Assembly: GCF_001425705.1 (NCBI RefSeq)
Contig: NZ_LMDC01000023.1
Coordinates: forward strand, 473,079-537,078
Reading direction: 5' to 3'
DNA: 64,000 bases
DNA from: Pelomonas sp. Root1217
Lineage (GTDB): Bacteria > Pseudomonadota > Gammaproteobacteria > Burkholderiales > Burkholderiaceae_C
The notes below the pieces were generated by a model. That model did not search any database. It was not told the origin of the DNA and saw nothing but the letters and a program-made list of their open reading frames with translations. Below, one piece after another: positions 2,936 to 60,123 of this stretch. Both the position numbers and the translations under genes were made by a program. The first letter of the stretch is position 1; every line of letters begins with the position of its first letter.

Positions 2936-5170
2936 CTACTTCACCGCCTCGACGGTCAGCAGGCCAGAGCCTTCAAGTCGCACGGATGTCGACTCGCCAT
3001 TCAGCCCGCTGGCCGACAGCGAACTGACGTTGATGTTGAGCACCTGGCCGGCCGCCGGCGGCAGGGCGCGGAAAGCGACGACGCGCTCACCGCGCGGTGC
3101 CAGCTCGACGGGATAGCGGCCGGGCGTGACGCCCTGCAAGGGCTGGGCCGGCGTAAGTTTGGCCGCGTCGTATTCCAGCTCGCCCTTGATCTGCAGACCA
3201 CTTTCGTTCTTCAGCGCGACGGACACGGTGCCGCCGGCCGGGATCTGCGGCGTCACGTCCAGCTTCAGCATCGCCTCGGCAGGCGCCGCAGCGGGCTGTG
3301 CCTGGGCAGTGGGGGCGGCGGCGCCGCCACTGCTGGGCGCCACGCCGACCCGCGCCTCGCGGCGCAGCAGGCTGCTGAAGGCGCCGGGGCTGGCGTCGGT
3401 GCCGCTGGCCAGGCGCGTGAGGGACGCGTCGGGCACGGCCAGGTTGCGCACCACGCGCGGCGTGATCAGCAGCACCACCTCGGTCTTGTTGCGCGTGTCG
3501 GTCTGCGTGCCGAACAGGCGGCCCAGCACGGGAATGCGCGACAGCCCCGGAATGCCGGTGCCGCTCTTGCGATCCTCGTCGTTGATGAGGCCGGCCAGCA
3601 CCTGCGTCTCGCCGTCGGCCAGGCGCAGCACGGTGGAGGTGTTGCGCGTGCCGATCTCATAGGCCGTCGTGCCGCCGGGGCCGGTGACCTGGCGGATCAG
3701 GTTGCTGACTTCCAGGCCGATCTTGATGACGACGTCGTTGTCGAGCTGGATGGTGGGCTCCACATCGAGCTTGAGGCCGACGTCCAGATAGCTGACCGAG
3801 GCCGCGACGGACGTGGAACCGGTGAAATTGGTCGTCGTCGTGAACACCGGCAGCTTCTGGCCGATGTGGACCTTGGCCTTGTCCCGGTTGCGCACGCGGA
3901 TTTTGGGGTTGGCCAGGATGTTGGAGTTGCCCGATGTGCCGCGCAGCGTGGCCACCACTGCCGGATTGGCAATGCTGGCGCGGAAGTAGGCGCGGTCGCT
4001 GAGCAGCACCTGGCCGACGGCGCCGGGCAGGCCGTACTGCACCGTGTCGGGCCATTGCAGGCCCAGTGAGTCGACCTGGTCGGTGGCCAGCTCCATGACC
4101 TCGACCTCGAGCATCACTTCGGGCTCGGGCAGGTCGACCGACGCGATGAGCTTTTCCACCAGGCGCAGCACCTCGGGTGTGTCGCGCACGATAAGCAGGT
4201 TCAGGCGCTCGTCGATGTGAATGTCGCGCACCTTGGCGATGGTGCGCACCATGGCCTGGACCTGCTTCACGTCGGCATTGGTCAGGTAGAGGGTGCGGGT
4301 GATCAGCTCCTGGTGCTCGCGCTGCTTGGCAGCCGTGTTGGGGAAGATCAGCACCGAGGTTTCGTTGAGCAGCTTGCGATCCAGCTGCTGCGTGCCGAGG
4401 ATGACGCGCATCGCCTCGTCCATCGTCACGTTGCGCAGGAAGACGGTCACGCGGGCATCGGCGCGCACGTCCTTGTCGAAGACGAAGTTGACACCGCTGG
4501 AGCGGGACAGCGCCTCGAAGACCTGGCGCAGCGGCGCCTCGCGGAACTCCAGCGTGACGGGCTTCTGGAAGGCCGGGCCCAGCTCGCCAACCGCCGCCTC
4601 CAGCGGCCGCGCCTGGGCGACCTGGCTGGCCAGCAGGCGGGCGCCGGGATGCTGGGGCGACTCGGCCAGGATCTCGCGCGCCACGCCTTCAGCGCGCTCC
4701 AGGCGACCTTCCTTCAGCGCGGCGCGGCCGGTGGCCAGCTGGGCGTCCTGGCGGCGGCTGCGTTCCACCTCGGTGGTCAAGGCGGCCAGGCGCGGGTGCT
4801 TGGCGTCGGCCAGTGCCAACTGGCTCAGCAAGGCCGAGGCCTCGTCCCAGCGCCCCGCGCCGCGCAGTGCCTCGATCTGCAGGATGAGGCGGGCCGTCGC
4901 CTGTTCACGGGCACGCACCTGGGCGGCGCGCAATTGCGGGTCGTTCGGATCCTTGGCGCGGGCATCATCCAGCACACGCAGGGCGGCCGGCCACTGGTTG
5001 CTGCGGCCGAGGTCTTCGGCCTGGCGCAAAGCCGGGTTGGCGCAGGCCGCGAGCAGCACAGTCACAAATGCCCCAAGGACGACGTGGAACGTCGTCCGCC
5101 CCCCGAGGGGAGCGGGAAAACTTGGGGCGGCCCGGCGTTTTCCCGGGAAGAGAAGGAAGAGCTGCTTCAT
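2936..5170 (-). CDS. gspD: Secretin (GspD/PilQ-like) with N-terminal TPR-like and C-terminal cohesin-like domains
   Basis: The protein has 744 residues and is probably an outer-membrane lipoprotein: a hydrophobic stretch VLGAFVTVLLAAC puts a lipobox Cys at residue 43. Residues about 45-190 are helical repeats of TPR type (NQWPAALRVLDDARAKDPND and two similar units). A short secretin N-domain (VTLEFREAPLRQVFEALSR) and an N1-like domain follow. The secretin core runs from about 350 to 570 and ends in EVVLLITPRVVR; it contains IPGLSRIPVLGRLFG. After a Pro/Ala-rich linker, residues about 625-744 (MLKLDVTPQIPAGGTVSVAL and onward) look like a cohesin-type beta domain. The ATG at 5170 overlaps the upstream stop (ATGA). 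Residues 8-33 are encoded by a palindromic repeat. The pore function is firm from family knowledge; what is secreted is unknown. Confidence 0.9.
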   Translation of the reverse strand: MKQLFLLFPGKRRAAPSFPAPLGGRTTFHVVLGAFVTVLLAACANPALRQAEDLGRSNQWPAALRVLDDARAKDPNDPQLRAAQVRAREQATARLILQIEALRGAGRWDEASALLSQLALADAKHPRLAALTTEVERSRRQDAQLATGRAALKEGRLERAEGVAREILAESPQHPGARLLASQVAQARPLEAAVGELGPAFQKPVTLEFREAPLRQVFEALSRSSGVNFVFDKDVRADARVTVFLRNVTMDEAMRVILGTQQLDRKLLNETSVLIFPNTAAKQREHQELITRTLYLTNADVKQVQAMVRTIAKVRDIHIDERLNLLIVRDTPEVLRLVEKLIASVDLPEPEVMLEVEVMELATDQVDSLGLQWPDTVQYGLPGAVGQVLLSDRAYFRASIANPAVVATLRGTSGNSNILANPKIRVRNRDKAKVHIGQKLPVFTTTTNFTGSTSVAASVSYLDVGLKLDVEPTIQLDNDVVIKIGLEVSNLIRQVTGPGGTTAYEIGTRNTSTVLRLADGETQVLAGLINDEDRKSGTGIPGLSRIPVLGRLFGTQTDTRNKTEVVLLITPRVVRNLAVPDASLTRLASGTDASPGAFSSLLRREARVGVAPSSGGAAAPTAQAQPAAAPAEAMLKLDVTPQIPAGGTVSVALKNESGLQIKGELEYDAAKLTPAQPLQGVTPGRYPVELAPRGERVVAFRALPPAAGQVLNINVSSLSASGLNGESTSVRLEGSGLLTVEAVK
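5071..5149 (-). repeat. Palindromic repeat inserted in frame in the secretin signal-peptide region
   Basis: Three nested inverted repeats lie here: CCCCAAG (5071-5077) with CTTGGGG (5121-5127); GACGACGT (5078-5085) with ACGTCGTC (5089-5096); and CGGGAAAAC (5113-5121) with GTTTTCCCG (5137-5145). Between them is the anchor CCCCCCGAGGGG (5099-5110). The anchor, followed by a hairpin whose loop contains TTGGGG and CGGCCC, recurs inside the kinase gene near 40.25 kb. The insert encodes secretin residues about 8-33, an Arg/Pro-rich stretch unlike a normal signal peptide n-region. Translation still reaches the lipobox in frame. Confidence 0.7.
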
Positions 5171-12105: not shown

Positions 12106-12290
12106 TGCCCGCACCTTTCGCGGCCAGAGAACCCGGGCTTACCCCAGTGTTGTGCACCGGGGCGGGGCAATACATTTTCAGCACTCGACGCGGTTCCGGG
12201 CTCTGGTTCAGGACCGCCGGGCGGGTTGTGAGGAGACAAATCAAGCGCCAAGCGCATCCGGTTGCTTCGTAACCCCGAAGACAATCCACC

Positions 12291-12326
12291 GGCCACCAAG
12301 GCACCCCTTGGTGGCCGTTTTCTTTA
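12291..12326 (+). terminator. Intrinsic terminator with no annotated gene before it
   Basis: The stem GGCCACCAAGG (12291-12301), loop CACC and arm CCTTGGTGGCC (12306-12316) are followed by GTTTTCTTTA. It is an 11-bp perfect stem with a T-rich tail on the plus strand. No plus-strand gene lies to its left, as the nearest gene runs on the minus strand. It may therefore end an unannotated small RNA starting somewhere in 12110-12290. Confidence 0.65.
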
Positions 12327-12427
12327 TGGGGCCGAAGGCCCCTCGCCTGGTCTCGCACGCTGAACGCGGCGTGCCCAGTCGGTCTTGCAGACCGCGCTGC
12401 GGCAGGCACATCACGCCCACTGGGCGT

Positions 12428-12507
12428 AATGTGTCCGGCCTCGGCCCCCGAGGGGACGGCGATTGACCGGGCATCAAGCCCGGTCAACATCGCCCGACGG
12501 GCCGGCT
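12428..12507 (+). repeat. Structured repeat, copy A
   Basis: The order of parts is ATGTGTCCGG, the anchor CCCCCGAGGGGACGGCGAT (12445-12463), stem TGACCGGGC, loop ATCAA, stem GCCCGGTCA, then ACATCGCC and GGGCCGGCT. The outer GGCGAT and ATCGCC also pair. The inverted copy at 58599-58676 has the same anchor and the same 3' flank but a different stem sequence that is still fully paired. This is evidence that the fold, not only the sequence, is conserved. Confidence 0.75.
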
Positions 12508-12525
12508 CGGCGAACTGGAGTCGGA

Positions 12526-12585
12526 CACAAGCAGTCCCTGCGGACTGCTTGTGCCTACGGAAGGCCATGGGCCTCTGGCCCATGG
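12526..12585. repeat. Two adjacent perfect hairpins
   Basis: CACAAGCAGTCC (12526-12537) pairs with GGACTGCTTGTG (12542-12553) across a 4-base loop, a 12-bp perfect stem. CCATGGGCC (12565-12573) pairs with GGCCCATGG (12577-12585) across a 3-base loop. With GGGGCC-GAA-GGCCCC at 12328-12342, the terminator at 12291 and the structured repeat at 12428, they form a 300-base run of hairpins. The rest of the 584-base gap between the lipoprotein start and the TauE/SafE gene holds no coding sequence I can support. Confidence 0.6.
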
Positions 12586-12644
12586 CAGGCCCAGCGCTCG
12601 GCCCGCGCAAGGCGCTACGGCCGCGCAGTGATAGAACCCGGGAC

Positions 12645-58545: not shown

Positions 58546-58598
58546 TGAGTGTTCCGTTTCATGTTCAGGTTTGCGGGCCGAGCGACGGGCCGCTCCCT

Positions 58599-58676
58599 AG
58601 CCGGCCCGCCTTGGCGATGTGCTTGCGGCTCGATGCCGCAAGCATCGCCGTCCCCTCGGGGGACCGACCGGACATG
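58599..58676 (-). repeat. Structured repeat, copy B (inverted relative to copy A)
   Basis: Read on the minus strand the order is CATGTCCGG, anchor CCCCCGAGGGGACGGCGAT, stem GCTTGCGGC, loop ATCGA, stem GCCGCAAGC, then ACATCGCC and GGGCCGGCT. Only the hairpin stem differs from copy A at 12428-12507, and it stays fully paired. It lies between the dehydrogenase and thiolase genes and may act as an intercistronic stem in their shared mRNA. Confidence 0.75.
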
Positions 58677-58710
58677 CCCGCGTTCAGCGGCGCAGGGCTG
58701 GGCGAGGGGC

Positions 58711-60123
58711 TCATCGCAGATACGGGCTCACGCGATAACGCTCGCCGCGATAGTGGTGATCGAGTCGGTTCAGCAGCGCGGCGACCGGTGCGGAGCCCCA
58801 GAAGGCCAGCCATTCGAAGGGCCCGGCCGGATAGTTGACGCCAAGTTTCATCGCCGCATCCGCGCCGGCCTCATCGCAGACGCCCTGGGCGACAGCATCC
58901 GCCGCCTCGTTGATCAGCATCGCAATCGTGCGCGCGACGACGAGACCGGGCAAGTCGGCCATGGCGCGCGGCACCAGGCCCAACCGGGTTAGCCATGCGG
59001 CCGTGGTGGCGTCGCCGGCATAGGCGAGGTCGCCGGTGGGGGCGAGCGGCAGGTCAAACACCGCCGTACCGGGCCCGAATTCGCGCGCGCGCCGGCCGTC
59101 GGTCAGACGCAGTTGGCGGCCATCGACAGCCACGCCGACCCAGTCGCTGTCCAGTTCGCGCACGGCCTCGGGCAGGTTGGCGACGAAGCGCTCGGCCAGG
59201 GCGCCGCGGCCATGCACAACGAGACGGGCCGCCCGTGGCGGCGCAATGCTGACGGCCGGCAGGGCCGGCGGCCCTTCTGGATAGCGGTAAAAGCCCCGCC
59301 CGCTCTTGCGGCCGAGGAAACCGGCGTCGACCAGCTCCTGCTGCACCAGCGAGGGCGTGAAGCGGCGGTCAAAGAAGTTGGCCGCGAAGACCGAATGGGT
59401 CACGGCGAAGTTGGTGTCATGGCCGATCAGATCCATCAGCTCGCAGGGCCCCATGCGAAAGCCCGCGGCGCGCAACAGCGCGTCGATGAGCTCGGGCGGT
59501 GCGGCACGGTCCTGCAGCAGCATCAGTGTCTCGGCGTAATAGGGCCGGGCGATGCGGTTGACGATGAAACCGGGCGTCGAGCGGGTGTGCACCGCCGTCT
59601 TGCCCCAACGGGCGGCGAGGTCGAAGACCGCCTGCGCGACTTCGGGCGAGGTGCCAAGGCCGGACACGACCTCGACCAGCTTCATCAGTGGCACGGGGTT
59701 GAAGAAATGCATGCCAACGAGGCGCTCGGGCTTTTGCATGCCGCGCGCCAGCGTCGTGACCGAGATGGACGAGGTGTTGGTCGCGATGACAGCCTCGGGC
59801 GGCAGCAGCGCTTCCAGTTCAGCAAACAGCGCGCGCTTCACGTCGAGGTTCTCGACGATGGCCTCGATGACGAGATCGGCCGGTGCCAAGGCCTCGACCG
59901 GTGTGATGCGCGCCAGCGCCGCCTGCGCCGCATCGGCCGTCAGCCTGCCCTTGGTGACCAGGCCATTCAGCATCGCCGAGAGCTTGCTCCTGGCCGCCTC
60001 GGCTGCACCGGCACGTGCGTCGAACAGCGCCACTTGGTGACCGGCCTGAGCGGCCACTTGCGCGATGCCGGCACCCATCAGGCCGGCGCCGACGACGAGG
60101 ATGCGCGAGTCGTTCAGAGTCAT
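58711..60123 (-). CDS. 3-hydroxyacyl-CoA dehydrogenase (PaaH-like)
   Basis: The protein has 470 residues. The NAD-binding motif is ILVVGAGLMGAGIAQVAAQA; ATNTSSISVTTLARG follows. The catalytic His is in LVGMHFFNPVPLMKLVEVV, with STPGFIVNRIARPYYAETL after it. Two C-terminal 3HCDH domains follow, the second with RTIAMLINEAADAVAQGVCD and AMKLGVNYPAGPFEWLAFWG. This two-domain layout matches 3-hydroxyadipyl-CoA dehydrogenase PaaH and 3-hydroxybutyryl-CoA dehydrogenases. The ATG at 60123 overlaps the stop of the enoyl-CoA hydratase gene (ATGA). It oxidises a 3-hydroxyacyl-CoA for the downstream thiolase. Confidence 0.9.
   Translation of the reverse strand: MTLNDSRILVVGAGLMGAGIAQVAAQAGHQVALFDARAGAAEAARSKLSAMLNGLVTKGRLTADAAQAALARITPVEALAPADLVIEAIVENLDVKRALFAELEALLPPEAVIATNTSSISVTTLARGMQKPERLVGMHFFNPVPLMKLVEVVSGLGTSPEVAQAVFDLAARWGKTAVHTRSTPGFIVNRIARPYYAETLMLLQDRAAPPELIDALLRAAGFRMGPCELMDLIGHDTNFAVTHSVFAANFFDRRFTPSLVQQELVDAGFLGRKSGRGFYRYPEGPPALPAVSIAPPRAARLVVHGRGALAERFVANLPEAVRELDSDWVGVAVDGRQLRLTDGRRAREFGPGTAVFDLPLAPTGDLAYAGDATTAAWLTRLGLVPRAMADLPGLVVARTIAMLINEAADAVAQGVCDEAGADAAMKLGVNYPAGPFEWLAFWGSAPVAALLNRLDHHYRGERYRVSPYLR

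Follow-up and report, generated by a model that had tools for sequence, protein, structure and literature searches.

A multi-hairpin palindromic repeat, abundant in Roseateles and Pelomonas, has covarying stems and usually lies just behind stop codons

ERIC sequences are intergenic and behave in a MITE-like manner. The attC sites of integrons follow the stop codon of a cassette, fold on the bottom strand, vary in sequence under a conserved shape and carry the core sites RYYYAAC and GTTRRRY, and the insertion of IS200/IS605 elements is polarised by replication. REPs, in the passages of one study that deal with them, are dispersed high-copy extragenic palindromes that lie near the 3' end of the ORF preceding them and whose termini can supply a stop codon (PMC3733652). 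The CGTC-tagged repeats are characterised in the same passages as single short palindromes, i.e. hairpins with stems of 8-9 bp and loops of 4-5 nt, whose terminal CGTC is unpaired and whose stem begins with AT; they have a CCA-like tail and no transposase known to that study (PMC3733652). Extracts of further work give a length of 103-168 bp for the enterobacterial RU elements (PMC2759123), state that TnpA_REP works on single-stranded REPs (PMC8266576), report an effect on translation of E. coli REPs located less than 16 nt from a stop codon (PMC12306157) and mention the bordetellae among stem-loop families (PMC2267715). The spread of REP-like palindromes and their location behind stop codons are old puzzles, for which the repeat analysed here offers a test case.

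The window, that is, the whole stretch of 64,000 nucleotides from Pelomonas sp. Root1217 that was analysed, carries copy A of this repeat on the plus strand and copy B on the minus strand. As the preliminary description had it, the two copies have in common an anchor (exact matches at 12445-12463, plus strand, and 58644-58662, minus strand) and a 3' block, their loops read ATCAA and ATCGA, respectively, and the 9-bp stems, TGACCGGGC/GCCCGGTCA in copy A and GCTTGCGGC/GCCGCAAGC in copy B, differ in six of nine pairs, all six of them compensated. The limits given there (12428-12507 and 58599-58676) proved too narrow. Copy B is a complete element of 136 bp with a long H1 (minus strand, 58709 to 58574), matched by the covariance model with 110.3 bits. 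Its parts, all on the minus strand, are H1, a variable stem (58665..58704); H1b, the small hairpin GTCCCC-CGA-GGGGAC, which is part of the anchor (58650..58664); H2, the hairpin originally noticed, composed of GGCGAT, the covarying 9-bp stem, a 2-nt bulge and ATCGCC (58613..58649); and H3, CGGGCCG...CGGCCCG (58574..58608). The TGA stop of the upstream gene, presumably 3-hydroxyacyl-CoA dehydrogenase-like, lies at 58711..58713 (minus strand), and 28 nt (58546..58573, minus strand), which were not seen in the closest congener, a genome without copy B, lead from the element to the start codon of a gene that we take to be pcaF-like. Copy A (12339..12605, plus strand) is longer because it carries extra hairpin modules. 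It is a composite of H1, extra hairpins, H1b, an H2 with a replaced stem (12458..12494, plus strand; TGACCGGGC/GCCCGGTCA, where the orthologue in the congener Root1237 has GCTTGCGGC/GCCGCAAGC) and a long H3 containing inserted hairpins. A candidate third, degenerate member at 5071..5145 (plus strand) joins H1b to an H3-like hairpin with the stem CGGGAAAAC/GTTTTCCCG; it has no H2, is common to Root1237 and scores 30.8 bits with the model (E about 0.0092-0.012).

Across the family, a typical copy measures 118 or 136 bp and has four hairpins, composites being longer. Read from the CCCCTCG end, the order is H1, H1b, H2 and H3. H1 is either short, CCAAGG/CCTTGG, or a longer variable stem, and across the family it contains two 1x1 mismatches, most often C.T or T.C; H1b is CCCC/GGGG, and GTCCCC/GGGGAC in most copies without extra hairpins, as judged by eye; H2 has the 2-nt bulge and H3 is CGGGCCG/CGGCCCG. 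When 131 model matches were sorted, 69 were long, 24 short and 33 of a third type, defined by extra hairpins before H1b, and 5 had no start; part of the 69 long copies were later recognised as belonging to the third type. Extra hairpins also occur within H3 in some copies, copy A among them. Three tandem degenerate units of the family are present in another genome (G048, L057:1501-1789).

The host genome of 6.65 Mb contains 113 matches to a 19-nt anchor at up to 2 mismatches, and none to the reversed pattern used as control. A covariance model based on 21 copies found at least 129 at E<=0.01, a lower bound because no more than 150 candidates were scored. Further copies thus exist, and the preliminary observation is confirmed as genuine, in a family wider than two copies could show. 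The repeat is REP-like and scattered through the genome, keeps its structure, and has dozens of copies that share their flanks and whose stems covary. All 20 congener genomes searched carry it, with 14-145 copies each and several genomes exceeding 100. Outside the genus the distribution is patchy, as copies were present in 13 of 60 genomes drawn from the taxonomic family of the host, Root1217 and Root1237 (G012) included. A near-consensus pattern was found in 12 stretches of named records, from Pelomonas spp., Roseateles caseinilyticus and three MAGs (an uncultured Pelomonas, a Burkholderiales bacterium and a Comamonadaceae bacterium), and the element had no match in the plasmid, phage and E. 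coli collections. Three IMG/VR contigs match, with the element 3' of a stop codon, and are possibly host fragments; two of them (L173 and L174, the third being L175) are identical in the sequence shown and have a damaged H3. Rfam gave 0 matches at the gathering threshold in the window and, at E<=1 in four loci, only two sub-threshold matches, both in one locus (L058) and away from the element. A description of the family was not found in the literature of the open library. The family is large and is present in Roseateles/Pelomonas and in some related genera of the same taxonomic family.

In an alignment of 109 copies, 20 of 31 pairs were changed on both sides, a number reached in 0 of 500 shuffles; 97.1% of cells paired and the covariation score was 0.123 compared to 0.039 in shuffled alignments (0/500) and to 0.022 at most in slid structures. 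This alignment was fitted to the model and is hence biased towards the structure; a MAFFT alignment of 21 copies agrees, with double-sided changes in 8 of 31 pairs (0/500 shuffles). Uncompensated changes, named at the outset as an outcome that would speak against a maintained structure, do occur in the 9-bp stem (50 of 1044 cells in 116 Root1217 copies are not Watson-Crick), with pairing still well above that of shuffled arms. Two pairs separate the two main classes of H2 stem (35 and 31 of the 116 copies), with no intermediate between them among the 25 stems listed, which cover 112 of the 116 copies. This gap is one reason to consider that the compensated changes may be neutral for the most part: template switching within an imperfect palindrome would copy one arm onto the other, with no selection involved. 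Arm copying should, however, erase the bulge beside the 9-bp stem, which is ACATCGCC in 104 of 116 copies, and the C.T or T.C mismatch of H1, which is kept in 115 of 130 copies while swapping sides (A.G or G.A on the opposite strand).

The history of copy A bears on the same question. Copy A is common to Root1237 and, upstream of H2, nearly identical there except for a 19-nt gap, and both arms of the H2 stem are replaced en bloc between the two (12445-12509 compared to L218:5213-5300), as template switching would have it. The H3 of copy A differs as well, being longer than in the orthologue, which makes recombination with another copy possible; the block change could have arisen in either way. 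With the excess of A.C mismatches described below, which arm copying does not predict, we regard a neutral origin of the compensated changes as quite improbable.

Copies come and go between close relatives. At the junction of copy B, the element is absent in all 18 congeners in which the junction was seen (that of G010 was not recovered), and of the 17 congener junctions that were parsed, 13 have the stop of the upstream gene and the following start overlapping in an ATGA. When 11 Root1217 copies were compared by eye with Root1237, 3 sites were empty there, 3 held collapsed remnants, 4 copies were shared and 1 was left unassigned. In the reciprocal comparison of 16 Root1237 copies, also by eye, 5 sites were empty in Root1217, 2 held another hairpin repeat, 3 copies were shared and 6 were left unassigned. 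At one site (L209:19338), the filled and empty alleles disagree over about 40 nt at the gene end, which look as though they had been replaced. At two further sites (L201:8021 and L216:9356), Root1237 carries the present element; the orthologous gene-end sites of Root1217 (on C23) hold a different hairpin repeat, CCACAGAGGCACAGAGG-like ... CCTCTGTGGTTGC. Copies of the element are polymorphic and labile among close relatives.

The position of the element relative to genes was analysed for 124 copies of Root1217, i.e. the 131 model matches minus 7 without definable start, with genes called by a codon-usage classifier trained on the ORFs of the window. The CCCCTCG end lies 0-13 nt 3' of a sense stop codon in 105 of the 124 copies, and in 4 others a sense stop ends 26-27 nt inside the element. 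The other 15 comprise one copy with a sense stop 68 nt before it, one with a stop at 9 nt that fell below the score cut and 13 with antisense or weak coding sequence upstream. Only 69 of 3000 random intergenic points, drawn from 364 kb, are placed in this manner. The rule extends to two other genera (G053 and G033), where 26 of 27 placeable loci obey it, among the best 30 of 75 matches, 3 of which had no start. Copy A is an exception, since by eye it lies 3' of a hairpin with a T-rich tail resembling an intrinsic terminator (12290-12325) and not of a stop codon. Three roles for the sequence itself were discarded. The element is not an intrinsic terminator, as a rule having no T run after its matched ends (at L222:5975, a terminator-like sequence is found further downstream); a supply of stop codons in all frames is not supported, 1.24 frames being closed on average compared to 1.44 when shuffled; and the bottom strand of the full form is not a coding sequence, the core length varying by 1-2 bases between copies, as judged by eye. 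There was little trace of 3' transduction of flanks, as few 18-24 nt matches were present outside the long-H3 tails among the matches listed (59 of 74).

Such tight placement in the sense orientation (105 of 124 copies start 0-13 nt past the stop) would be expected of a 3' UTR element kept by selection, the hairpins acting in the mRNA of the upstream gene. Copies would then survive behind stops and in sense because the hairpins slow 3' exonucleases or stall the terminating ribosome, and the REPs of E. coli, treated in the RepRanger paper, offer a precedent, as those no more than 15 nt from a stop codon are reported to stall the terminating ribosome. At L222:5975, the element sits, by eye, between a stop codon and the terminator-like sequence, as this explanation would allow. 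The stops beside the element (85 TGA, 13 TAG and 7 TAA) are used much as in the called genes of the 364 kb (182, 45 and 21, respectively), and the TGA motif alone is therefore not the target, which is also in keeping with a role in the mRNA. Against such a role stand the lability of copies among close relatives, the placement of a short subfamily and the kind of mismatch in the stems. On balance, we consider maintenance as a 3' UTR element to be rather unlikely, though a serious contender.

The short subfamily (subfamily 2) was found in four genomes of other genera (G075, G025, G031 and G065). It lacks H2 in 51 of 52 matches, and the matched span is 48-50 nt. In 19 of 28 placeable loci (30 loci of the 52 matches were analysed, 2 having no start), the start codon of an antisense gene is found no more than 20 nt from the CCCCTCG end; of the remaining loci, 4 are antisense and further off, 4 follow a sense stop and 1 is weak. 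A position mainly before start codons and in antisense is not that of a 3' UTR element. The starts that could be read are ATGA or GTGA in 15 of 17 cases, compared to NTGA in 113 of 248 called genes of Root1217, and the reverse complement of the subfamily 2 end, CGAGGGG, occupies a Shine-Dalgarno-like position, as seen by eye. The short form could often be located at ATGA stop/start overlaps, with its GAGGGG end as ribosome-binding site.

If the strand read in the preliminary description (the top strand, sense to the upstream gene) is the one that folds, G.T mismatches are expected to outnumber A.C mismatches in the stems. The outer four pairs of H1 have 63 A.C and 0 G.T (40 A.C in Root1217 and 23 in other genomes), and counting all H1 pairs in 46 long copies of Root1217 gives 49 A.C and 8 G.T. 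The H2 stems of Root1217 have 34 A.C and 2 G.T, or 12 and 2 by pair position; the copies are related and the counts are therefore not independent events. The bias is weaker in H3 of Root1217 (16 A.C, 8 G.T) and absent in H1b (4 and 4). The alignment from other genomes gives 4:4 in H2, 3:19 in H3 and 7:26 over all core helices (A.C to G.T), which is in the opposite sense (p=0.001), several of the mismatches coming from degenerate copies. A comparison of minimum free energies favoured the bottom strand in the element and likewise in flanking control DNA, and was discarded because of this equal bias. The excess of A.C in H1 and in H2 of Root1217 is moderate and mixed evidence that the strand opposite to the one described folds. 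On the sense strand, A.C should be the kind of mismatch least tolerable for an RNA, which speaks against hairpins acting in the mRNA; the structured RNA on the top strand that had been offered as one reading is accordingly disfavoured by H1 and H2 of Root1217, while H3 and the other genomes disagree. Tallying A.C and G.T mismatches offers an inexpensive test for the folding strand of a palindromic repeat.

The other reading offered at the outset, mobilisation by a RAYT, would make the element a true REP-type family moved by the Y1 transposase of its own genome, in agreement with its high copy number and its palindromic, extragenic copies near 3' ends. Genes with a Y1_Tnp domain (PF01797) are indeed present, 2 in Root1217 and 1-4 in each of 20 of 20 copy-bearing congener genomes, and their number correlates weakly with copy number (Spearman 0.41, p=0.075, n=20). 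However, neither Y1_Tnp locus of Root1217 has a model match, and genus-wide only 2 of 30 such loci (of 40 Y1_Tnp matches) contain the element, with 3 matches at E<=0.01 in 98 kb where about 1.1 are expected (P of 3 or more = 0.10), i.e. near background. One of the two loci (L264) holds one weak match. In the other (L267, genome G083), a copy at 2267-2382 starts a few bases 3' of the Y1_Tnp stop, and a second copy is present at the start of the locus; this counter-example fits a RAYT origin, yet the element sits in this way behind genes of any kind. As only 9 of 124 copies have a GTAG no further than 30 nt from an end and the element is several times the length of a REP, movement by a resident RAYT, which neither proximity nor the copy-number correlation supports, seems very doubtful. 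In Root1217, one Y1 transposase-like gene (L029:1459-2184) is located directly 3' of a gene that we take to be dGTPase-like.

A MITE of a DNA transposon would share terminal inverted repeats and a target duplication with an autonomous element. A scan of 844 kb for motif clusters, which left ORFs in partial copies out of account, revealed no autonomous version, and by eye the element has no long terminal inverted repeat. The signal for a target duplication was weak (k=4 within 12 nt, 37 compared to 28.2 expected, 12/300), longer words being in excess only when distances of up to 60 nt are allowed (k=7, 9 compared to 3.8 expected, 2/300). The strand order of copies along contigs looks mixed, unlike the replication-polarised insertion of IS200/IS605. 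An integron integrase scoring above the TIGR02249 cut-off was detected in 9 of 20 congener genomes and in neither Root1217 nor Root1237, which are two of the three copy-richest genomes. An attC origin was rejected, as the integrase is missing in these two genomes and the RYYYAAC/GTTRRRY core sites were present at the ends of 0 of 124 copies on either strand.

The reading that we favour, as roughly an even bet, is that the element is a high-copy non-autonomous mobile palindrome that moves as a folded single strand, by means of an enzyme acting in trans. The moving strand would perhaps be the bottom one. We propose that stems stay paired because the folded strand would be the substrate, so that any compensated stem would work. 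Insertion, or survival after insertion, may be favoured within a few bases of stop codons, positions at which a copy would leave coding and upstream control regions intact, and we infer from the docking that a preference for translation boundaries could be part of the mechanism. Old copies would decay through the collapse of hairpins, and a role in a 5' leader or 3' UTR is possible. More tentatively, and in our judgement unlikely, the family might represent a new class of mobile element, in which a folded bottom strand would be moved by an enzyme and targeted to translation boundaries, the full form behind stops in sense and the short form before starts in antisense. Since the stems covary, sister species differ and copies dock at gene ends, REP-like spread becomes testable in an environmental genus.

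Compared to known systems, the element resembles REPs and REPINs in being dispersed, high-copy, palindromic, extragenic and close to the 3' terminus of the ORF before it. Unlike a REP, i.e. a palindrome of 20-40 bp with an unpaired GTAG at one end, it measures 118-136 bp or more, has four hairpins and carries GTAG close to an end in just the 9 copies counted above; unlike REP/RAYT systems, it has no general adjacency to a RAYT gene and a nearly fixed sense orientation. With the CGTC-tagged repeats it has in common that both are hairpin families, theirs being without known transposase in the passages cited (PMC3733652); compared by eye with that description, the element differs in having multiple hairpins, in that its GTC is paired in H1b and in that it ends in other hairpins. 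With attC sites it shares the location after a stop codon, possibly a bottom-strand fold, and a shape kept under varying sequence, whereas it is dispersed singly and has no core sites. It belongs to the size class of ERIC and RU, is intergenic like them and has the MITE-like behaviour of ERIC, and it differs from both by its modular covarying stems and its docking at stop codons; a blastn search confined to 20,395 E. coli records gave no match at E 0.01. While it departs from the named families in those defining features that could be compared, the element works like a miniature mobile palindrome of the REP/ERIC type.
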